Assembly: GCF_015207005.2 (NCBI RefSeq)
Contig: NZ_JADEXS020000001.1
Location: 6,843,001 to 6,907,000, forward strand
Direction of reading: 5' to 3'
DNA from: Desmonostoc muscorum LEGE 12446
GTDB taxonomy: Bacteria > Cyanobacteriota > Cyanobacteriia > Cyanobacteriales > Nostocaceae
Length of the DNA stretch: 64,000 bases
Numbering within the stretch: position 1 is the stretch's first letter; each line of letters begins with the position of its first letter. The position numbers and the translations under genes were made by a program. The notes below the pieces were generated by a model that was given only the letters and a program-made list of their open reading frames with translations, had not been told where the DNA came from and did no database searches. Below, one piece after another: positions 34,019 to 60,360 of this stretch.

Positions 34019-35201
34019 CAGGGCTATTTCATTCTAAAAAGCTGCTTGAGTGTGTCTAGTCCAAAAGAACATAAACGTTGAGCTTGTGCCATATTTTTAA
34101 ACATATTGTTTCGGTATAAATTGAGTGAAAAATTGCGAGTGAGCGCAAAAATCTGAGGTAAGGGTGTAGTGCGAATTCGGGATGCATCTTCACCTTGGGT
34201 AACGTCCCGAACGTAATGAACTTTATTCTCAACACCCCAATATCCTCTGATTCGTTCAGCTATTTGTTGAGCCGTTTCAGTTAGAGATGAAATGTAATAA
34301 CGAGTCTCAGTAGTTACTTCAATTACATTGTGTGTGAAAACCTGACGTTCTGATTTGACTTGAATCAAAGTGGTAAGTCCAGGCCAAGGACGAATACCAT
34401 CAAGATTTTGACAAATACTGACATGTCGCTTTTCGATTCGACCATGACCTTTATTTATCTGCTCAAAAGAAAATTCCGGTGTAAAATTAGTTTTGATATC
34501 TTTGAATAAACTAGGTTGATTCCCTTTCAAGGCAGCAATATAATCATTGCCACTGTTGATAATCAACTCACAAGTTTTTTTTGTGTATTAATAGCATCAA
34601 AGGCAAAAACTACTCCCCTGAGAGCCAGTTTCTCAATCAACTCAGGTAATGCTTTTATTTCGTTGGTTTTGGCATCAACTTCAAACGGTTCTAAAATCAA
34701 TCCTCGCTCTACAAGGTAAGCACTGACCAACATAATTGCTGGGTGGGAATCAGAATGTGGATTATCATTTTCTACTTGATATGAGCCTTTGAGGACTTTA
34801 CCATCCATACCAACAGTTTCTCCAGGCAGTGGTTTGATGTCAAAGAAATTCGCAAGGCATACGGAATACTCTTCGTAATTTATGTGTAATAAATTACGAC
34901 GGACTGTACTGTAAGAAGGAAGCCTATTCTTTGTCGGTTTCAAGAGGTCTATCAACTCCTCACGGTAGCTTGAAATCCAATCTCCAATTGCTAGAAATCC
35001 TTTATTGCCTGCGGCGATCGCCAATGTGAACAGCGCAAGACATAATGGTAGAGTATGTCGCTGTCCGGCGCGGCGACGGGGGTCTTCTAGACCTGCAAAA
35101 GCTTTGATAATTTCGATTTCAGACACGGTAGTAGATACTTGAAGTAGAGCTGGCGATGAATTCTACCATATTGCGTCTACATTTAGAATGAAATAGCCCT
35201 G
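34019..35201 (-). mobile_element. ISAs1-family insertion sequence, complete ends
   Basis: An 1183-bp element with perfect 20-nt inverted ends, CAGGGCTATTTCATTCTAAA at 34019-34038 and its complement at 35182-35201. A 9-bp direct duplication, TTTTTGAGC, flanks it at 34010-34018 and 35202-35210, in line with ISAs1-type transposition. It sits inside the ISH3-like remnant and is therefore the younger insertion. Confidence 0.95.
34024..35126 (-). pseudogene. ISAs1-family transposase, split by a -1 shift at an A8 tract
   Basis: The first frame (35126-34563, 187 residues) holds the N-terminus EDPRRRAGQRHTLP, the catalytic-type MDGKVLKGS and FDAINTQKK. The second frame (to the stop at 34024) continues DYIAALKGNQ and RGYWGVENKVHYVRDVTQGED, with the third acidic residue. 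On the coding strand the frames join at CAAAAAAAAC: reading one A twice gives QKKTCELIINSG, a smooth continuation. It could be a plain inactivating deletion of one A, or slippage (ribosomal or transcriptional) could still make the full enzyme. The intact ends and target duplication show it moved recently. Confidence 0.88.
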
Positions 35202-35261
35202 TTTTTGAGCAGTCATAAAGGAAACTTATGAATCAGTCAAGAGAATCAACCATTACTAGTC

Positions 35262-35796
35262 CTACGTCAAACACACTTCATTGACTACCCCATAATGGCG
35301 GTCTATAGTTTGACGTAAAAATTCCAGCATTTGTTTGAGAGTAAATAGATAAGAGAAAGCTTTTTTACTACTTCTTCTTAAAGTACTAAGATAATGCCAT
35401 AGTAGATAAATCCAAATATTAATAATTAAAAATGCTAACGCTACAAATATAAACCTAATGGTTGGATTTTTAATAGTTGTTTTGATGCGGCATTGGTTTT
35501 TCATCCGATAGCTGCTCTCAATTCCGAAACGCAGACGATAGTCATCATGTATTGAATGTAATGACAACTTAACTTTATGGATAGCATAAACAAAAAACTC
35601 TCGTCCAAGCGAAAAGTCTTTTTCCTTTTTTATATGTACAAACTATTCCTACGACAAAGGTGACTGAACCATATTTGTCGCTGTTCAACGTGTAAGTAGT
35701 TCTATAACTACGCCGCCCTCTAATTAATTGTCTAGTCCCTCCATGTTTACCTCGGATAATAGCTGGCATCTCAAAAGGGATATTTAAAGCTTGCAA
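35262..35796 (-). pseudogene. ISH3-like transposase remnant (copy 2)
   Basis: Two frames together give the C-terminal half of a transposase: 35796-35575 (IPFEMPAIIRGKHGGTRQLI...GSVTFVVGIV) and 35567-35262 (DDYRLRFGIESSYRMKNQ...IINIWIYLLWHYL). The motif RFGIESSYR with the acidic Glu is typical of ISH3-family enzymes. A frameshift separates the parts near 35570, and the N-terminal half is deleted; between 35797 and the right end only about 200 bp of IS sequence remain. Confidence 0.8.
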
Positions 35797-36018
35797 CCAC
35801 CGAATTACCGGGACACAGAAAAACTCTCTATCTAACGGTTGACCCCAGAGGTCTGGAGTTTATTTATTAGCTTTTGTTATCAATTGATTTTTCTTAAAAA
35901 TCCCAAAATATGTATTCTTTAATACAGTTAATTCAACAAAAGTCTGATTTAGAATCTGTTTTTCAGAGCGATCGCGAAACTTTTCGGTCTACTGAAAGTC
36001 AAGTCTTCACAAATATTT

Positions 36019-36037
36019 AAACTAAACAGTTTAGTTT
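36019..36037. promoter_or_regulatory. Perfect 19-nt palindrome upstream of the OCP island
   Basis: aaactaaac-a-gtttagttt: two 9-bp arms around one base, 240 bp before the receiver gene. Symmetry and size fit a dimeric repressor site, but no regulator is identified. It lies just outside the ISH3-like right end. Confidence 0.4.
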
Positions 36038-36120
36038 GCGCTTGGTAACAGCTTCGTCAGTTCTTCCCCAAAACACCAGTTTAAAAAACTAGACGGAAAA
36101 AAGGAATTCAGATTTGACCT

Positions 36121-36200
36121 TTTCTTAATTTTTATATTGTAGTTAAACAAATAACCCTAGAAATGAAACATCACCCTGTCATGGTGTAGGGAAATCAATA
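36121..36200 (+). promoter_or_regulatory. 80-nt upstream element shared with the apcA-like gene (copy 1)
   Basis: Aligned without gaps to 39381-39460 it matches at 64 of 80 positions by my count. Best-kept blocks are agttaa.caaataaccc, aaat.aaaca, accctgt and atg.tgtagggaa. It ends 76 nt before the receiver gene. Conservation of a non-coding block in front of two genes of one island suggests a shared promoter/operator or leader. No known cyanobacterial box (NtcA, L box) is evident in it. Confidence 0.65.
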
Positions 36201-36276
36201 AGACATCAGTCACCCGACACCCGGTTAACTCCTTTCAAGAGTTACCAGGTTTTTAGCACTGTTTGCATGTGAAATC

Positions 36277-36807
36277 ATGATTGGGGCTGGGATGTATCCA
36301 AATAATAGATTTCCGACTAATCTTCAATGCCTCCAAGGGCTGCGAGTACTCGTTGTAGATCATAATGGCGATTTCTCCGATTCGATCGCCCTGCTGCTGC
36401 AACCCTATGGTGTGGAGGTGCAAACAGCATCTTTAACTCAGCAAGCTTTGGAAATATTTGTCCAATGGCAACCTGATGTCCTCGTGAGTGACATTGCCTT
36501 GTCAAAAGAGGGTGGCTATCCCCTGATTCAACAAGTGAGAACTCAGGCGGGAGAGCGAGGGGAAGCGGTGCTAATCATTGCTGTGACGGGCTATGCCAAT
36601 AAAAAGATACTTCAAAGTCCTCTGTATGTTGGGTTTGACCTGTTGTTCACAAAACCCCTGGATTTTAATGAGTTTCTTGCTGTGCTTGCCTGTTTAGCAA
36701 TTTGTCAACAGTCCTCATACACTATCGCTCAACGAATTTTGGGTCATGTTCCTAGACACGATCGTCTAAGTCTTGAAAAGCAGTTAGATTTGGTATTTCC
36801 AAGTTAG
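36277..36807 (+). CDS. Stand-alone receiver-domain response regulator
   Basis: A 176-residue protein with one CheY-like receiver domain (about 22-140): RVLVVDHNGD gives the acidic pocket in weakened form (Asp-His rather than Asp-Asp), the phosphoacceptor Asp lies in VLVSDIAL, and the conserved Thr (AVTGY) and Lys (FTKPL) are present. No DNA-binding or enzymatic output domain follows, only a short tail. It may act by protein contact. Two ATG codons (36277, 36292) are possible; no strong Shine-Dalgarno separates them. It precedes the OCP gene by 61 nt on the same strand, so a role in light signalling for the island is suggested by position only. Confidence 0.82.
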   Translation: MIGAGMYPNNRFPTNLQCLQGLRVLVVDHNGDFSDSIALLLQPYGVEVQTASLTQQALEIFVQWQPDVLVSDIALSKEGGYPLIQQVRTQAGERGEAVLIIAVTGYANKKILQSPLYVGFDLLFTKPLDFNEFLAVLACLAICQQSSYTIAQRILGHVPRHDRLSLEKQLDLVFPS

Positions 36808-36868
36808 CATTACCATTTTTGAACCATATCAATAAATTAATGTAATTTCGTTTTGGAGATTTTGAAAA

Positions 36869-37828
36869 ATGTCGTTTACTATCGAATCTGCACGCTCCAT
36901 TTTTCCTGACACTCAAGTTGCTAATGCGATTCCAGTTACCGTTGAATCATTCAATCAACTCAGTGCTGAGGATCAGTTGGCTTTACTTTGGTTTGCCTAT
37001 ACTGAGATGGGAATTACAATCACTCCCGCTGCTATGCAGGTAGTCAACATGGTCTTTGCAGAAAAAACCCTAACTCAAATCAAGCAGATGTCTACCGGAG
37101 AGCAAACGCAAGTTATGTGCGATCTGGTTAACCATACTGATACGGACATCTGCCGTACATACTCATCTTTCGGCACAAATGTCAAGTTGGGCTTCTGGTA
37201 TGAGTTAGGCGAGTGGATGAAGCAAGGAATCGTTGCTCCCATTCCAAAAGGTTATAAACTTTCTACCCAGGCATCAGATGTCCTCCAAGCTATCCGTCAA
37301 CTTGAAGGAGGCCAGCAACTCAGCATATTACAGGATATTGTCGTTAACATGGGGTATGTCCCAACGGTTGGCACTCAAAAAGTCAAAGAACCTGTTGTTG
37401 CACCTAAAGATATCGCACCACGACCTCAGGTCAACATTAAGGGCATCGACAACTTGACAGTCCTAAGCTACATGGAGAATATGAACGCCTTTGACTTCGA
37501 GGCGGCTGTGGCTTTATTTGCTGAAGATGGTGCCTTGCAACCTCCTTTCCAAGAACCGGTTATTGGTCATGAGTCGATCCTTACATATATGCGTGAAGAA
37601 TGCTATGGACTCAAGCTGATTCCGGAAACAGGAGTGTCTGAACCAGCAGAAGCAGAGTTCACCCGGATTAAAGTGACGGGTAAAGTGCAAACTCCCTGGT
37701 TTGGTGAAAGTGTTGGCATAAATCTAGCATGGCGGTTCTTACTCAATCCCCAAGACAAGATTTTCTTTGTGGCGATCGATTTGCTGGCATCTCCCCAAGA
37801 ACTACTGAACCTGGGCTTCGTAAGGTAG
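36869..37828 (+). CDS. Orange carotenoid protein paralogue, divergent
   Basis: A 319-residue OCP with the helical carotenoid/phycobilisome-binding N-domain (1-165) and the NTF2-like C-domain (about 195-319). It aligns to Synechocystis OCP1 without gaps through the N-domain. The carotenoid-contacting residues Trp41, Tyr44 and Trp110 are kept, as are the C-domain tyrosine and tryptophan (VLSYMEN; NLAWRFLL). Three positions differ: Asp19 is Asn, Arg27 is Ser and Arg155 is Gln. In OCP1 the first two form the dimer contact, and Arg155 pairs with Glu244 and helps dock on the phycobilisome. It therefore probably binds carotenoid and responds to light, but may differ in domain closure or antenna binding. 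It could belong to the OCP2/OCP3 clades. A GGAG lies 9 nt before the ATG. Confidence 0.93.
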   Translation: MSFTIESARSIFPDTQVANAIPVTVESFNQLSAEDQLALLWFAYTEMGITITPAAMQVVNMVFAEKTLTQIKQMSTGEQTQVMCDLVNHTDTDICRTYSSFGTNVKLGFWYELGEWMKQGIVAPIPKGYKLSTQASDVLQAIRQLEGGQQLSILQDIVVNMGYVPTVGTQKVKEPVVAPKDIAPRPQVNIKGIDNLTVLSYMENMNAFDFEAAVALFAEDGALQPPFQEPVIGHESILTYMREECYGLKLIPETGVSEPAEAEFTRIKVTGKVQTPWFGESVGINLAWRFLLNPQDKIFFVAIDLLASPQELLNLGFVR

Positions 37829-38338
37829 AAGAGCTTGACAGTGATGAGCGATCAACTGTGTGTTTTCAGCCTGAGCGATCGCTCAGGCTGAAAATCATCC
37901 TCAAAATGGCGGTTTACCTTGCGCTTTGGCAAAGCCTAGACATTCAACTGACTATGCATGATCGGGCGTATAGCCTTTGGCACGGAAGCAAAATATATCA
38001 CTATTTATTTTATTTGGCAATAAACATTGCAGTTTTGTAACAAAAGTGTTAGATTTAATTTATAAAACATCACAAAACCAAAAAGTAAAACTTATAGAAA
38101 GCGGTTTAGTGATTTAAGAATTCGGTAGGCTGAACGACTACGCCATCGAATTTTTGAAAGTACGTGATGTATGAGCCTCAGTTTAGCTTCATTCAGTATC
38201 CAGAAAAACGAGCAAAAAGTTTTTGCTCTTAGCCCTAGCAAGCCGGACTAGGTGCGATCGGTCTGTTCACTGGCTTGTAGGAAATTGAACTTCACCATAT
38301 ATCCTAAGCACTTTTCCAAAATATTAAGGATAAAACCA
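37829..38338. other. Intergenic region after the OCP gene
   Basis: About 510 bp with a HIP1-centred palindrome at 37863-37894 (see separate entry) and a second perfect palindrome of 19 nt at 38210-38228 (gagcaaaaa-g-tttttgctc). A 44-codon open frame from 37905 (MAVYLALWQ) has no support. The last part must contain the promoter of the small membrane protein gene. Confidence 0.55.
37863..37894. terminator. Perfect 32-nt palindrome centred on HIP1, 3' of the OCP gene
   Basis: Two 16-nt halves (ttttcagcctgagcga and complement) meet at the centre of gcgatcgc. In RNA it gives a loop-free stem flanked by A and U runs, 34 nt after the OCP stop; a rho-independent-like terminator in both directions is likely. 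Confidence 0.7.
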
Positions 38339-38569
38339 ATGAGAACTAATGTTGCCTTAACTAATCCTTCTCTGTTTAGTCCCGTTGTCTTCGGACTCGG
38401 TTTCAATCACTTTGAGAAAATCAACGCAACTCAGGCCTGGTCACTGTTTTTCACTGGTGGTAGAGGAGATCAGGCACTTGGACTTAGCCCCACAGTAGGG
38501 CGTTTTTTCAACTTCAGCTTGCTCGCTATTGCAAGTATTCTTTGGATTTTCTTGTTCAGACCTTTCTAA
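38339..38569 (+). CDS. Small single-helix membrane protein, unknown
   Basis: A 76-residue protein starting MRTNVALTNPSLFSP at the ATG 38339, with AAGGA 8 nt upstream (38326-38330). The middle reads NATQAWSLFFTGGRGDQ, then LGLSPTVGRFFNF leads into one hydrophobic helix (LLAIASILWIFLF) at the C-terminus. It lacks the ExxNxRxAM chlorophyll-binding motif of Hlips. Position between OCP and NblA/Hlip genes points to thylakoid stress acclimation, but I do not recognise the family. A longer frame from 38252 has no ribosome site and is not favoured. Confidence 0.7.
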   Translation: MRTNVALTNPSLFSPVVFGLGFNHFEKINATQAWSLFFTGGRGDQALGLSPTVGRFFNFSLLAIASILWIFLFRPF

Positions 38570-38655
38570 ACGAGGGTGAATACGAGATCAGGCGCTAACG
38601 CCAACGACTGAGAAATCAAAGATCGCATTAAAGTAACCTCGATTGGAGAATCATT

Positions 38656-38793
38656 ATGTCGAAAGAGAAAAAAGGCAACAAAGAAGCCAAAAAAGCCAAA
38701 AAGAAATCTGATGGTACTAAAAAGCAAAAGAAAGACCCCAACAGACATGATGGACCTGCAACACGCATAACAAAGAGTTCAAATGAACTTTAA
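38656..38793 (+). CDS. Tiny lysine-rich protein, unknown
   Basis: A 45-residue, strongly basic protein (MSKEKKGNKEAKKAKKKSDG..., about 17 Lys) with a good GGAG site 7 nt before the ATG at 38656. No fold or family recognised; it is likely disordered. It might bind nucleic acid or acidic antenna proteins. Its real expression needs support, but the ribosome site and its place inside the tightly packed island argue that it is a gene. Confidence 0.5.
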   Translation: MSKEKKGNKEAKKAKKKSDGTKKQKKDPNRHDGPATRITKSSNEL

Positions 38794-38855
38794 AACATAG
38801 CTAGTGCAACATCGAAGTCACAATTTTCACCCTAATTCAGTTACAGGAGGCATCA

Positions 38856-39041
38856 ATGGAACTAACTTTAGAGCAAGAATTTAGCCTTAGAAGCTTTACC
38901 GATCAGGTGCAGCAAATGTCCCGCGAACAAGCTCAAGAATTCTTGATTTTGCAGTATAAGCAGATGATGATTCGGGAAACGATATATCAGGACATTCTGA
39001 AACAACAGTGGAAATTAGATCTGGATTTTGCCTCTCTCTAA
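38856..39041 (+). CDS. nblA: NblA phycobilisome degradation protein
   Basis: A 61-residue helical protein: MELTLEQEFSLRSFTDQVQ, then MSREQAQEFL, YKQMMIRETIYQDILKQQW and LD. This order of conserved residues is that of NblA, the adaptor that hands phycobiliproteins to the ClpC protease during nutrient or light stress. The ATG at 38856 is preceded by AGGAGG (8 nt), so translation should be strong. Its presence with OCP, Hlip and ApcA-like genes suggests this copy serves antenna trimming under excess or changed light rather than only nitrogen starvation; this is inference. Confidence 0.92.
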   Translation: MELTLEQEFSLRSFTDQVQQMSREQAQEFLILQYKQMMIRETIYQDILKQQWKLDLDFASL

Positions 39042-39112
39042 AACCACCGAAGCAATCCTGACTTTCCACAACTGAGTAATTCCTTACAGTCACAAAATTT
39101 GGAGTATCAACC

Positions 39113-39292
39113 ATGTCAGCTAACACAAACATCGCTTCTTCAATGAACAATCAGCGCAATGCTTGGCTTTGGGGCTTTACACCTCAGACTGAAGTCTGGA
39201 ACGGTCGTTTAGCCATGATTGGCTTCATATCCGCCGTTCTCATTGAAGTTTTTTCTGGTCAAGGCTTGCTTCACTTCTGGAATATTTTGTAG
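39113..39292 (+). CDS. hli: High-light-inducible protein (Hlip, CAB-like)
   Basis: A 59-residue one-helix protein with the chlorophyll-binding motif in [20 protein letters not shown], where Glu, Asn and Arg match ExxNxRxAM. Hlips bind chlorophyll and carotenoid and quench energy near photosystem II assembly complexes in thylakoids. The gene follows nblA by 71 nt. A GGAG lies about 8 nt before the ATG at 39113. Expression in high light is expected for the family. Confidence 0.93.
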
Positions 39293-39630
39293 GTCAGCAG
39301 TTGCAGTTTAACCAATATAGGCTGCTCGATAGCTAAGAAGTTAATCTAAACTTCATTTTGAGCTTTGAGTTCGAGATGCTTGTCTTAACTTTTATGACGT
39401 AGTTAATCAAATAACCCCACAAATAAAACAGTACCCTGTGATGCTGTAGGGAAGGAAATAGTAAATTATCACCTTGTGCTTTGTTCATTCTGGAGGCATC
39501 ACACTACTCAACTCTTAGAAACAAAAGTGATTGAGGGTGAGAACTTGCACAGTTTGCTCTCGCAGGTTCAAGGTGTAAATAATTTAACCGTTTCAGATAG
39601 ACCTAATTTAAATCTTTCAGGAGTTAACTA
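39293..39630. other. Leader/promoter region of the ApcA-like gene
   Basis: Holds the second copy of the 80-nt shared element (39381-39460) and 170 nt of further leader before the ATG. A CAGGAG at about 39618-39623 is the ribosome site. No small gene is supported here. Confidence 0.6.
39381..39460 (+). promoter_or_regulatory. 80-nt upstream element shared with the receiver/OCP genes (copy 2)
   Basis: Gapless match to 36121-36200 (64/80 by my count), ending 170 nt before the ApcA-like start. The two copies diverge outside these limits. See the first copy for the conserved blocks. Confidence 0.65.
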
Positions 39631-40113
39631 ATGAGTGTTATTACGAAAATTATTTTAAATGCAGATGCCGAGGTTCGCTATCTCAGCCCTGGAGAACTCG
39701 ACCAGATCAAGATGTTTATTACCAGTAGTGAGCGCCGTCTACGCCTTGTGCAAGCTTTAACTTTAAGCCGCGATCGCATTATTAAACAAGCCGCAAGCGA
39801 ACTTTTCCAAAAGCGTCCAACCCTTGTTTCTCCGGGTGGTAATGCCTACGGCAAAGATATGACTGCCACCTGCCTGCGGGATATGGATTACTACCTGCGC
39901 TTGATTACTTACAGCGTTGCCGTTGGAGATGCTACACCAATTGAAGAAATCGGAGTCATTGGTGTTCGCCAAATGTACAAATCCCTCGGCACTCCAATTG
40001 AGTCCGTTGCTGAAAGTGTCCGTGCTATGAAGAACATCGCTATCTCGATGTTGTCTGGAGAAGATGTTGGCGAAGTTGGTACTTACTTCGATTACCTAAT
40101 TAACGCTCTCTAG
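39631..40113 (+). CDS. Allophycocyanin alpha-subunit paralogue
   Basis: A 160-residue phycobiliprotein closest in sequence pattern to ApcA ([70 protein letters not shown]). The bilin-binding cysteine is present (Cys81). It differs from the usual ApcA in many positions and is not ApcD by its N-terminus, and no apcB partner is adjacent. It may replace a core alpha subunit under particular light conditions or bind outside the core. The 5' region carries the 80-nt element shared with the receiver/OCP genes, so it probably belongs to the same regulon. Confidence 0.9.
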
Positions 40114-40181
40114 TAAGTAGACACCAGGGGCGAGCGAGTGCGTTAATTGAACTTCAGCTACGCCCAAAAGTATTGCACAAA

Positions 40182-40205
40182 AATGAGAGGCGATCGCCTC
40201 TCATT
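40182..40205. terminator. Perfect 24-nt HIP1-centred palindrome between convergent genes
   Basis: Each half aatgagaggcga mirrors the other around gcgatcgc, 69 nt after the ApcA-like stop and 47 nt from the citramalate synthase stop on the other strand. A short loop-free stem here would serve both convergent genes. It has the same design as the palindrome at 37863. Confidence 0.6.
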
Positions 40206-57833: not shown

Positions 57834-58139
57834 ATGCCCAATATTGATTTCACCCAAAAGTTACAAAATTTAATGCAACGAGTGGGTATTTCTAGTTTTA
57901 AAGCGCTCAGCCGTGCTGCTGGTGTCTCAGAGGGTCAAATTTTGCGGTTACGGCAAGGAAAACTAGAGCAGATGCGGGTAGATGTGCTGCTGAAGCTGTC
58001 GCCAGTGCTACAGATGTCATTGAGTGAATTAGTCACAACTTTTTCAAATGTAGAATTATTACAAAATACAGCAGCTAATAATTGGACTTTGGACAAAAAG
58101 AAGTTTGTTCGCGAGTCACACTCGCGAACAAAAAACTAG
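57834..58139 (+). pseudogene. HTH-GrpE-like gene, 5' part (interrupted by IS)
   Basis: 81 genuine codons remain (MPNIDFTQKLQNLMQR...), with a Cro/XRE-like helix-turn-helix (FKALSRAAGVSEGQILRLR). From codon 84 the frame runs into the IS end and stops at 58139. Joined across the IS, with one TSD copy removed, the frame continues exactly with the 3' part at 59842, giving a 217-residue protein. The truncated HTH part might still be made. Confidence 0.88.
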
Positions 58140-59840
58140 TCATCAGAAATTACCCCAGTTATTTTACAAACTGAGTCAGACTGAGTTAAACGCCTAAAGC
58201 CTAAGAAAATTTATGCGGCTTTGACTTTAGCGAGTGTTGATTTTGACTTCTTCTTGACAACAGGATGCTTAGTTCGTTGTGTTTGAACTTGACCTTGAAC
58301 TCGACCGATGGAATTTCCTCTGGTTTTGGGAGAACGAGCGGGTGTACCAATCTCTGAAATAATTCTCTGAAAATCGCGTTGCACTACACTTGGAGTGGCA
58401 ATTTTATCATTGTTTTGTTCTAAATAACGCTCCCATGGCCTGGGTAAGTGTGTTGCTAACTCCCTTGCCGCCCACAACTGTACGTAAGCTAGGATTACTA
58501 AATGTATCCAATTTTCCTCATGCAAAACATCTGGAGTTTGAAACTGCGTCATCAACAAACGCTGCTTGCTAAATCGCAGCATGTGTTCAATATCAAACCT
58601 TTGTCTATAGCAATGGTTTGCAACCGTAGGTGAGATTTCTCCACGTTGCTCACCTATGACAATTAACCACATTGGTTTCCAGAGAGATTGATTAGTATCA
58701 TCAGTCACATGAATTCTGAGCAGAGTAAAAGGATGACAATACATTTTTTGGTGCTTGGTTCCCCTCATCAACATTTGATGCCAAGCGAGTATGGTGATGT
58801 TTAAAAGACGACCCTTACAGGTTGTCTGCTGAATTTGTGTTGTCTCGTCGGGAGAGTGCCAAGTTTCAACATCAGCTAAATTAAACCGTTCACCGTATTT
58901 TTTTGGACAACCACGTTTTTTCTTTGACTCATCAACGGGTGGAGATTGGTAGAAAATTCGATTACTACGAACTCTGGCTATCACTACCACATTTTTGTGT
59001 TTGGATTGGTCAAACAGAAATGAACGCTGACTATAGGCGCTATCTGCTACTAAGACGCACAATTTTTCCTGCCAGGGCAGTGATGAATCAGACATTACTG
59101 AGGAAATTTGTTCACTACCCACATCAACACCAGTTTTATCAAGTGATACCCTTTCTCCTGATATTGGTATTGACCAAGGGGCGGCATTCCCAGTTTCTTT
59201 CTCTGGTAAGATAGAAAGTATCGAATAAGAATGACCAATATTAATCGGTTTGTTACCCTTGATAGTATTTGGCTGGTAAATATACCCACGTTCAGCTAAA
59301 GTCCTCGCGTAAGGACGCGGATGCGGTGTTGTATCAAGAGCGAATAAGTAAAAAGGGCGTTGTTGTGGTTGCTTAATTAACTCAGATACCACCCTAATTA
59401 AGTTATTGGGTTTTTCTTGTTCTTCTTGTTCTTCTTCTTCATTGTTCTTCTCCTGAATATTTGTATTAAATGATTTTTGAATTGCTTTATAAATAGAATT
59501 ATAGCTTCTGGGAAACAAAGGACTTAAAGATAACTCCGCAATTGAATTGGCTCCCGTATTACCCGCAAGCGCATCCAACAAATCCATACAGGCGTCGCTA
59601 CATGAAGAAAAACAGTTGTAAATTTTTTGTCTAAAATCTTGAAATTGCGCTATTAATTGATTGTTATTAAATTTTGGCATAGCCATCAGTATTTACCCAA
59701 AGATACTTTGTAGTTGATATTACTATTTGTTGGGGGTCTGATGGCTATGCTTTTTTCTGCTCGTCACTATAAACAAGATTAATCATTCATTTATTCGCGA
59801 GTCACACTCGCGAATAAACTTCTTTTTGTCCAAAGTCCAA
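58082..59840 (-). mobile_element. 1759-bp insertion sequence with 6-bp target duplication
   Basis: Inverted ends begin TTGGACTTTGGACAAAAAGA (58082) and its complement (ending 59840), continuing with a sub-terminal hairpin ttcgcgagt/actcgcgaa at each end. The target duplication TAATAA is at 58076-58081 and 59841-59846. It carries a single full-length transposase on the minus strand, so the insertion looks recent and possibly active. Confidence 0.95.
58211..59686 (-). CDS. DDE transposase of the inserted IS
   Basis: A 491-residue transposase. Candidate DDE residues: Asp in LFALDTTPHPRP, Asp in VLVADSAYSQRSF, and Glu in RQRFDIEHMLRFSKQRL, an IS4/IS701-like Y-R-x-R-x-x-x-E helix. The C-terminus is strongly basic (KHPVVKKKSKSTLAKVKAA). 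A run of Glu (NNEEEEQEEQEK) lies near residue 85. The precise IS family is not certain; NF041680-type transposases of cyanobacteria look alike. No frameshift seen. Confidence 0.9.
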   Translation of the reverse strand: MAMPKFNNNQLIAQFQDFRQKIYNCFSSCSDACMDLLDALAGNTGANSIAELSLSPLFPRSYNSIYKAIQKSFNTNIQEKNNEEEEQEEQEKPNNLIRVVSELIKQPQQRPFYLFALDTTPHPRPYARTLAERGYIYQPNTIKGNKPINIGHSYSILSILPEKETGNAAPWSIPISGERVSLDKTGVDVGSEQISSVMSDSSLPWQEKLCVLVADSAYSQRSFLFDQSKHKNVVVIARVRSNRIFYQSPPVDESKKKRGCPKKYGERFNLADVETWHSPDETTQIQQTTCKGRLLNITILAWHQMLMRGTKHQKMYCHPFTLLRIHVTDDTNQSLWKPMWLIVIGEQRGEISPTVANHCYRQRFDIEHMLRFSKQRLLMTQFQTPDVLHEENWIHLVILAYVQLWAARELATHLPRPWERYLEQNNDKIATPSVVQRDFQRIISEIGTPARSPKTRGNSIGRVQGQVQTQRTKHPVVKKKSKSTLAKVKAA

Positions 59841-59841
59841 T

Positions 59842-60252
59842 AATAATCAAGAATTATTACAAGAAATTGCAAATTTAAAAAAAGAGTACGATCGCTTGCA
59901 GTTTCAACTACAACAGCAGCGAGAAATATTACTACAAGAACTCCAGCAGTCAACTTTACAACTGCTGGAGCCTTTGTTGTTGCAATGGCCAACAGCAGCA
60001 CAAAAAGCCCAGGAAAATCCACAGCTAGCAGCAGTCAAAATAGTGCCGTTGGTACAGAAACCCCTAGAAAAACTTTTACAAGGGTGGGGAGTGGAAGCGA
60101 TCGCATTTGTGGGAGCAGAAGTACCCTACGATCCCCAACTACACCAATTGATGGAGGGAACTGCACAACCTGGAGAAATAGTCAAGGTGCGGTACACTGG
60201 TTACCTTCAAGGTGACAAGCTGCTTTATAGAGCTAAAGTCAGTCCTGTGTAA
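59842..60252 (+). pseudogene. HTH-GrpE-like gene, 3' part
   Basis: 136 codons beginning NNQELLQEIANLKKEYDRLQ: a coiled coil, then LLEPLLLQWPTAAQKAQ and a GrpE-head-like end (VPYDPQLHQLMEGTAQPGEIVKVRYTGYLQGDKLL). GrpE is the nucleotide-exchange factor of DnaK; a fusion with an HTH domain is a known cyanobacterial variant without assigned role. The part has lost its start because of the IS and is probably not translated. Confidence 0.85.
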
Positions 60253-60360
60253 AAGGGAATGGGGAATGGGGAATAGGGAGTAGGGAATGGGGGAGTCTGG
60301 GGAGATTATAAAAAAGCTTCCCAGTCCCCAATCCCCAGTCCCCAGTCCCCAATCCCTGGG
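60253..60360. repeat. Short tandem repeat tract
   Basis: ggggaatgggg-type units (60257-60305) and the complementary cagtccccaatcccc units (60320-60355) form an imperfect inverted arrangement after the HTH-GrpE gene. STRR type. Confidence 0.85.

Follow-up and report, generated by a model that had tools for sequence, protein, structure and literature searches.

The 80-nt non-coding block that occurs twice in a light-related island of Desmonostoc muscorum LEGE 12446, once upstream of the genes for a stand-alone receiver and the orange carotenoid protein (OCP) and once upstream of an ApcA-like gene, is, as judged by its sequence, one subtype within a larger family of promoter elements. It is considered, with moderate confidence, to be an activator-dependent promoter, the activator most likely being a NACHT/STAND protein that is homologous to XssQ and carries an N-terminal XRE-type helix-turn-helix (HTH).

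The duplicated block

The window (the whole stretch of 64,000 nt analysed) contains the block at 36121-36200 and 39381-39460. The first-pass annotation had aligned these segments without gaps at 64 of 80 positions, a count borne out here, and the runner-up ungapped 80-mer on either strand of the window reached 41/80 with copy 1 as query and 39/80 with copy 2. The loss of similarity outside the block described there was also recovered, with 7-9 identities per 10 nt inside the block and 0-6 per 10 nt in the compared flanks. Both copies are non-coding; 76 nt separate the end of copy 1 from the start of the receiver gene at 36277, and 170 nt separate copy 2 from the ApcA-like gene, which starts at 39631 (Table 1). 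A transposase-like ORF sits upstream of copy 1.

Table 1. Elements and genes of the light-related island (window positions).
Feature	Position	Strand	Basis
Element copy 1, putative operator-promoter before the receiver/OCP genes	36130..36198	+	R2 model 64.5 bits, E 7.3e-17 for the genome; alignment A4
Copy 1 half-site 1, TAGTTAAAC	36140..36148	+	Sequence; family profile columns 11-19
Copy 1 half-site 2, AAATGAAAC, starting 21 bp after half-site 1 start	36161..36169	+	Sequence; profile columns 32-40
Copy 1 putative extended -10-like TGTCATGGT	36177..36185	+	Profile columns 48-56
Stand-alone receiver-domain protein (RR), 176 aa	36277..36807	+	Pfam Response_reg E 1.3e-13; no other Pfam domains
Orange carotenoid protein (OCP), 319 aa	36869..37828	+	Pfam Carot_N 4.8e-64, NTF2 1.1e-13
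Small conserved protein S76	38339..38569	+	No Pfam match; homologues at loci L106, L109
Small lysine-rich protein S45	38656..38793	+	No Pfam match; homologues at L053, L054, L106
NblA-like phycobilisome degradation protein	38856..39041	+	Pfam NblA 2.1e-24
High-light-inducible (CAB-like) small protein	39113..39292	+	Pfam Chloroa_b-bind 4.5e-4, 21.2 bits (cut-off 22.3, just missed)
Element copy 2 before the ApcA-like gene	39390..39458	+	R2 model 55.3 bits, E 5.6e-14
Copy 2 half-site 1, TAGTTAATC	39400..39408	+	Sequence, profile
Copy 2 half-site 2, AAATAAAAC	39421..39429	+	Sequence, profile
Copy 2 putative extended -10-like TGTGATGCT	39437..39445	+	Profile columns 48-56
ApcA-like allophycocyanin alpha paralogue	39631..40113	+	Pfam Phycobilisome 1.2e-58; NCBIfam ApcA 298.5 bits (cut-off 270)

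A 53-nt block pattern that tolerated up to 3 mismatches hit only these two sites across the 9.6 Mb of the genome; the reversed control gave 0 matches. Both copies are also present in a second genome of the species (G099) and in Nostoc sp. FACHB-973 (locus L052). A plain DNA search of the own genome recovered copy 1 together with 20 short matches but not copy 2; pattern and profile searches were therefore used instead. Across 99 genomes, a short pattern matched in 41; among the 30 loci listed, 27 were rejected because they share one conserved flank that resembles coding sequence (putatively ksgA, by eye). Locus L023 was something else, the own locus L025 and L040 were real element copies, and the copy in genome G041 was confirmed. 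The block had been described as matching no published cyanobacterial box, and none was found among the literature matches listed.

Architecture, distribution and orientation of the element family

The family is laid out as a TTTTnTRTCGTA part, a half-site close to TAGTTAATC, a half-site close to AAATCAAAC and an extended -10-like TGTCATAGT, and it points toward its downstream gene. For the profile, two rows from L054 and four matches of weak score (E 0.017-0.26) were left out and near-identical rows merged (71 to 65 to 46 rows). Its extended -10-like part (columns 48-56) has A at 0.98 and T at 0.93 at two key places. The best internal repeat offset between the half-sites is 21 bp, a weakly significant value that leaves alternative registers possible, and some elements carry an extra unit of 19-20 bp. 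No -35 box was seen in the element, and a sigma-70 scan reported no promoter (no hexamer pair) in either block.

At E<=1e-4, the family comprises at least 127 copies in at least 61 of 388 genomes. These counts are lower bounds because 12 element and 2 NACHT candidates were scored per genome; genome G001, for instance, has 4 elements in this count versus 6 at E<=0.01 in a separate R2 search. The profile search of this and other genomes, as the first-pass annotation had proposed, placed copies upstream of receiver/OCP and ApcA-like genes, and also of PNPOx, CsbD, ferritin/Dps-like, Rrf2 and other genes. A gene start lies within 400 nt downstream of 46 of the 64 usable copies, versus 14 of 64 in the mirror control. 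The rows for this test exclude eight (four second pieces from G318 elements along with four weak matches); collapsing near-identical rows reduced their number from 92 to 66, and two that lie close to contig ends were set aside.

The element is kept at orthologous receiver/OCP loci of other genera. At the loci of receiver orthologues with 50-57% identity (L057-L067), neither R1 nor R2 found an element; a fasciclin-like stretch, judged by eye, lies upstream there.

The NACHT/STAND protein and its relation to XssQ

The best predictor of the element is a 770-aa NACHT (STAND) protein. Its gene in this genome lies away from the window (C1:2500353-2502662), directly before two more elements and a second stand-alone receiver. 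Among the 388 genomes, 44 have both element and NACHT gene, 17 the element only, 20 the NACHT gene only and 307 neither, NACHT presence being defined by a 60% identity cut set after seeing the match list (at E<=1e-200 it covered 102 of 388 genomes, the remainder being mostly 45-53% identical). Within 5 kb of a NACHT gene lie 42 of the 127 element copies, versus 0.3 expected. A receiver gene follows NACHT gene and element at L100, L102, L108, L109, L111, L115, L116, L119, L159 and L164; this neighbour is not universal, being missing at L103 and L151, among others.

All three NACHT proteins scanned (L109, L112 and L151) contain Pfam NACHT and NCH2, and the scan reported no HTH in them. The N-terminus models as an XRE-type HTH: in the predicted structure, residues 4-72 align to XRE-type HTH chains in a single fold search with one aligner, and families beyond its match list may fit as well.

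The available text of two reports describes XssQ of Synechocystis sp. PCC 6803 as a proven STAND transcription activator with an N-terminal HTH, acting at single or tandem sites (tandem spacing 12 or 23 bp) of consensus AAGTTNNAC, the targets of XssQ/XssR/XssS being sulfated-polysaccharide genes (PMC8205485, PMC13125312). From its cluster, we infer that the pSYSM NACHT protein (57972-60323) is XssQ. The NACHT query P0001 is 34.5% identical to this protein over 99% of its own length (E 8e-119), with the N-termini aligned. Both systems combine a STAND protein with an N-terminal HTH (modelled here) and an adjoining response-regulator gene. They differ in their targets, which here would be receiver/OCP, ApcA-like and other genes, and in the regulator, XssR being given as 303 aa, longer than a receiver, whereas the receivers here are receiver-only. 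The element is also longer than the XssQ site, adding TTTTnTRTCGTA and the extended -10-like part. Against the XssQ consensus, L069 carries AAGTTAAAC and copy 1 TAGTTAAAC; an XssQ-site profile over the 46 elements did not score above shuffles, and the R2 model gave 0 matches up to E 10 on the xss stretch of pSYSM.

A different activator, an alternative sigma factor or a response regulator, with the NACHT-HTH gene as a mere regulon member or plasmid companion, is rather unlikely but is the strongest competitor. It would account for the unmatched XssQ-site profile, the 17 element-only genomes, the persistence of elements whose linked NACHT gene is broken (G002, G019, G020 and G249) and the joint travel of both on plasmids of Nostoc and Chroococcidiopsis. 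However, this companion has its own homology to a DNA-binding activator, the linkage takes several arrangements (downstream, divergent, within an island) and both partners are present in 28 genera. Moreover, G133, G326 and G364 have distant NACHT relatives (47%, 50% and 46%) without a close one, and G017, in the 39-genome set, has a relative at 67%.

Sigma B-type general stress regulons include CsbD and similar genes. In Nostoc punctiforme, CsbD, HCP and PRC-barrel induction has been described, and SigB2 was proposed as a possible regulator of CsbD genes, the available text naming no such element (PMC7660261). The target classes of these stress regulons overlap with those of the element family.

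Because fixed orientation, orthologous conservation and low copy number are joined by linkage to the gene of a STAND regulator whose head is HTH-like, the common activator site or promoter suspected from the two copies is supported. The accompanying suggestion of a leader found no such backing.

Leader and repeat readings, and a proposed mechanism

That the block acts as RNA in the receiver/OCP transcript, be it a leader element or an sRNA (hairpin ACAGCA/TGCTGT, attenuator), is very improbable. In the receiver/OCP subset, ACAG..CTGT changes jointly to ACAT..GTGT, so RNA pairing is still possible there, and a weak terminator-like hairpin follows copy 1 (z -2.2). Yet the hairpin reaches only z -0.6 to -1.3 at three orthologous loci, its letters vary outside this subset, RNAalifold gave 0 consensus pairs over 37 family members, and no Rfam match reached the cut-off in 35801-40200 (one sub-threshold match lies elsewhere). 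A leader peptide inside the block (ATG AAA CAG CAC CCT GTC ATG CTG TAG, MKQHPVML), whose frame most receiver/OCP copies keep open (TAG is replaced by TAA once), has next to no chance, and is refuted for the family because the start codon is not conserved (ATA in copy 2, ATC in L044; third base C 0.61, A 0.20, G 0.17 in 46 non-redundant copies). Equally negligible is a dispersed repeat, or the end of an insertion sequence, that was copied close to the island, as the transposase-like ORFs upstream of copy 1 and after another copy (L110) might suggest: this genome has few copies (at least 4 at E<=1e-4 in 9.6 Mb), orientation to genes is fixed and the element persists at orthologous loci in other genera. 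Neither many randomly placed copies nor a loss of orthologous conservation, the two outcomes named beforehand as speaking against a shared promoter, was seen. All three readings fail.

In the favoured reading, an activator-dependent promoter, the two half-sites, spaced by about two helical turns and joined in some elements by an extra unit, would lie directly before the extended -10-like sequence. A signal, probably relayed by the stand-alone receivers under the same promoter, would lead the NACHT protein to bind ATP and oligomerise; the receiver is a likely partner of the activator. NACHT subunits would then sit on the half-sites and bring in RNA polymerase, which would turn on the receiver/OCP and ApcA-like genes here and a broader stress set elsewhere.

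MalT-type STAND activators are likewise ATP-driven and oligomerising, binding arrays of MalT boxes near the promoter, and the activator proposed here would resemble them in using repeated promoter-near sites. MalT, however, has a C-terminal LuxR-type HTH, in contrast to the N-terminal XRE-like HTH modelled here with an NTPase of the NACHT clade. The animal NACHT proteins NOD2 and NLRP3 are immune sensors and, unlike the protein modelled here, are not known to carry a DNA-binding head.

More tentatively, many filamentous and unicellular cyanobacteria may possess a partly plasmid-borne stress and photoprotection regulon, in which an inflammasome-like NACHT activator, armed by stand-alone receivers from its own promoter, assembles along modular arrays of direct repeats spaced by some two helical turns. 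If the proposal is true, Nostoc-like cyanobacteria would have a regulator and an operator for an OCP that is accompanied by NblA, HLI and an ApcA paralogue, and NACHT/STAND transcription control would reach beyond a single polysaccharide cluster to cover a broad stress set. Both the site and the protein are defined, and strains that carry them can be named (Nostoc sp. UHCC 0870, Nostoc sp. C052 and Chroococcidiopsis sp. CCNUC1). Members of the element family occur in many cyanobacteria and are probably activated by a regulator that resembles an immune sensor and bears a DNA-binding head, which would make up a candidate stress-response circuit.

The shared block in the window and at orthologous loci

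The first-pass annotation had described an 80-nt block shared by the two copies, and this likeness was borne out: the ungapped identity is 64 of 80 positions, dropping off near both block edges. No other ungapped 80-mer of the window aligns to a copy at more than 41 of 80, and a strict pattern finds the block exactly twice across the 9.6-Mb genome. Genes for two small proteins, NblA and a high-light-inducible protein lie between the copies. Upstream of copy 1, three neighbouring ORFs may represent a broken insertion sequence, since the middle one matches DDE_Tnp_1_assoc. The imperfect hairpin that separates copy 1 from the receiver gene is terminator-like (z −2.2 in the window) and weaker at three orthologous loci.

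In Nostoc sp. FACHB-973, which retains both copies, in Scytonema sp. NIES-4073, in an uncultured cyanobacterium, in G041 and G035 of the genus and, in a more divergent form, in an uncultured Scytonema, the block precedes receiver or receiver/OCP genes. At locus L044 of genome G048 it precedes a PNPOx-like gene. The strict pattern is present in 5 of 53 genomes of the genus. In Chroococcidiopsis sp. CCNUC1, plasmid pB has the block, with an 89% match to copy 1 across 65 nt, in front of receiver, OCP and allophycocyanin genes. Scytonema sp. NIES-4073 carries a second copy, a partial promoter duplication: by eye, a 20-aa fragment of the OCP C-terminus and an FtsH-like ORF lie behind it.

Coordinates of the features discussed (C1, own-genome contig; L, fetched loci)
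Feature	Sequence	Position	Remark
Copy 1	window	36121-36200	before receiver-only protein gene and OCP gene
Copy 2	window	39381-39460	before ApcA-like gene
ORF trio	window	34024-35567	minus strand
Hairpin	window	36223-36254	GGTTAACTC..GAGTTACC, then TTTTT
Two elements	C1	2499983-2500294	before another receiver gene
NACHT gene	C1	2500353-2502662	88% to L109 query
NACHT copy	C1	5786817-5789108	67%
Second element, Scytonema sp. NIES-4073	L053	14305-14404	
Variant element	L107	4978-5036	alternative upstream half
Variant element	L117	5136-5197	alternative upstream half
Variant element	L110	8236-8298	alternative upstream half
Plasmid pB locus	L273, NZ_CP097482.1	158000-190000	

Composition and promoter behaviour of the element family

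A sequence-only profile built from 10 copies (R1) brought in related elements; at E<=0.01 it matched 82 of 388 genomes. The second profile (R2) was made from 37 members and found at least 127 copies in at least 61 of the 388 at E<=1e-4. In the own genome, R2 gave five matches at E<=0.01: the window copies, two others about 250 nt apart, and a weak fifth (E 0.0037). Sequence comparison establishes a conserved, oriented element family, whose consensus start is TTTTATATCGTAGTTAATCAATTCATTCAAGAAATCAAACAACACCCTGTCATAGTATAGG (46 non-redundant members). Conservation is highest in TTTTnTnTCGTA, AAnCAA, AAATnAAAC and an extended -10-like TGTCATAGT, in which the A (0.98) and the final T (0.93) vary least. 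Three variant elements share an alternative upstream half, ATCGCTTGATTT..AAAAGGTGAG, replacing TTTTnTnTCGTA, and retain the half-sites and the -10-like part.

In the best of 38 offsets tried, the second half-site, AAATCAAAC, begins 21 bp after the first, TAGTTAATC; the offset is suggestive only, because of 1000 runs with shuffled columns 118 score as high at some offset (1 when only offset 21 is considered). Four elements of genome G318 carry an extra 19-bp unit (TCGTA-to-AAAT distance 43 versus 24 bp), a fifth there is about 9 bp longer and one L054 element about 20 bp longer; their AANCAA words are spaced 17, 19 or 21 bp, which would fit more than one register. These natural length variants suggest that the element is modular.

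Judged from gene positions, the element behaves as a promoter: a same-strand gene of at least 100 codons starts within 400 nt downstream in 46 of 64 usable copies (median 120 nt); the mirror direction gives 14 of 64. The downstream genes, identified partly by Pfam and several by eye, include those for receivers, OCP, PNPOx, a ferritin/Dps-like protein, CsbD proteins, ApcA paralogues (window, L112 and L248), DnaJ with a MerR_2/CbpM-like partner, a thioredoxin-like protein, DUF4079, DUF6544, Rrf2 and, in L118 (by eye), a cation P-type ATPase. The gene set is one of stress and photoprotection, not of light harvesting alone.

Linkage to a NACHT gene

At many loci the elements adjoin a gene whose 770-aa product has NACHT and NCH2 domains, frequently in the order NACHT gene, element about 60 nt past its end, receiver gene. 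The placement varies from same-strand downstream to divergent (L106, with S76, S45, NblA, HLI and ApcA next; L160, adjoining an OCP) or some kb apart (L105, L161). A tblastn search of the window found no NACHT gene; besides the copies tabulated, the own genome has two at 44% and 50%.

In the 388-genome survey (NACHT threshold >=60%, genomes for element and NACHT drawn alike), 44 genomes have both, 17 the element only, 20 NACHT only and 307 neither (p 1.6e-28, inflated by kinship); the element and NACHT counts are lower bounds. By genus, the figures are 28, 4, 9 and 108 (p 2e-18, likewise inflated). For 42 of the 127 elements a NACHT gene lies no more than 5 kb away, against 0.3 expected. Among the 23 genus members of a 39-genome set (element threshold E<=1e-6; the weak G007 and G015 hits, E ~0.008, scored as absent), 10 have the element and a close NACHT, one truncated at a contig end; 5 carry the element but lack an intact close NACHT, remnants persisting in 3; 8 have neither, and none has a close NACHT without the element (p 0.003, kinship-inflated). 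Among the stretches fetched from loci of the 20 NACHT-only genomes, 11 retain OCP, ApcA, NblA, receiver or PNPOx homologues, and 5 have weak element-like matches (E<=0.0024).

The element is retained in some genomes whose linked NACHT gene is broken, which counts against NACHT as the activator; NACHT paralogues may serve there. In L194, L195, L197 and L236 the NACHT gene has decayed into fragments, with the element and receiver gene downstream of it retained.

Within about 19 kb, plasmid pB of CCNUC1 unites the element, receiver, OCP, allophycocyanin and NACHT genes with NblA, CAB-like, rhodanese, FtsH4 and fasciclin genes and a second element, and is a plasmid-borne photoprotection island. 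Nostoc sp. C052 pC052_A has five elements in 14 kb around its NACHT gene, in a cluster that includes genes for pyruvate kinase, lactate dehydrogenase and P-type ATPases. In the Nostoc plasmid loci L274 and L205, an element-rich cluster adjoining the NACHT gene includes pyruvate kinase, lactate dehydrogenase, phosphoglycerate mutase and P-type ATPases, a content that hints at a fermentative or anoxia role.

A proposed XssQ-type circuit

Linkage to the NACHT gene and the homology of its product to the presumed XssQ are evident from sequence, and a structure model gives the protein an HTH fold. The NACHT-HTH protein would occupy the half-sites as an ATP-dependent oligomer and activate transcription from a position immediately before the -10. 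The receiver, produced from that promoter, may pass a kinase signal to it, creating positive feedback; this step would resemble the XssR-to-XssQ relay of Synechocystis sp. PCC 6803. In titles and abstract openings of the open-licence literature, neither the element nor a NACHT regulator of OCP genes appeared among the matches listed, nor did any paper join NACHT, cyanobacteria and orange carotenoid protein. The circuit would be a variant of the XssQ-type system. Candidate signals that would suit its gene set are high light, desiccation, cold or dark anoxia.
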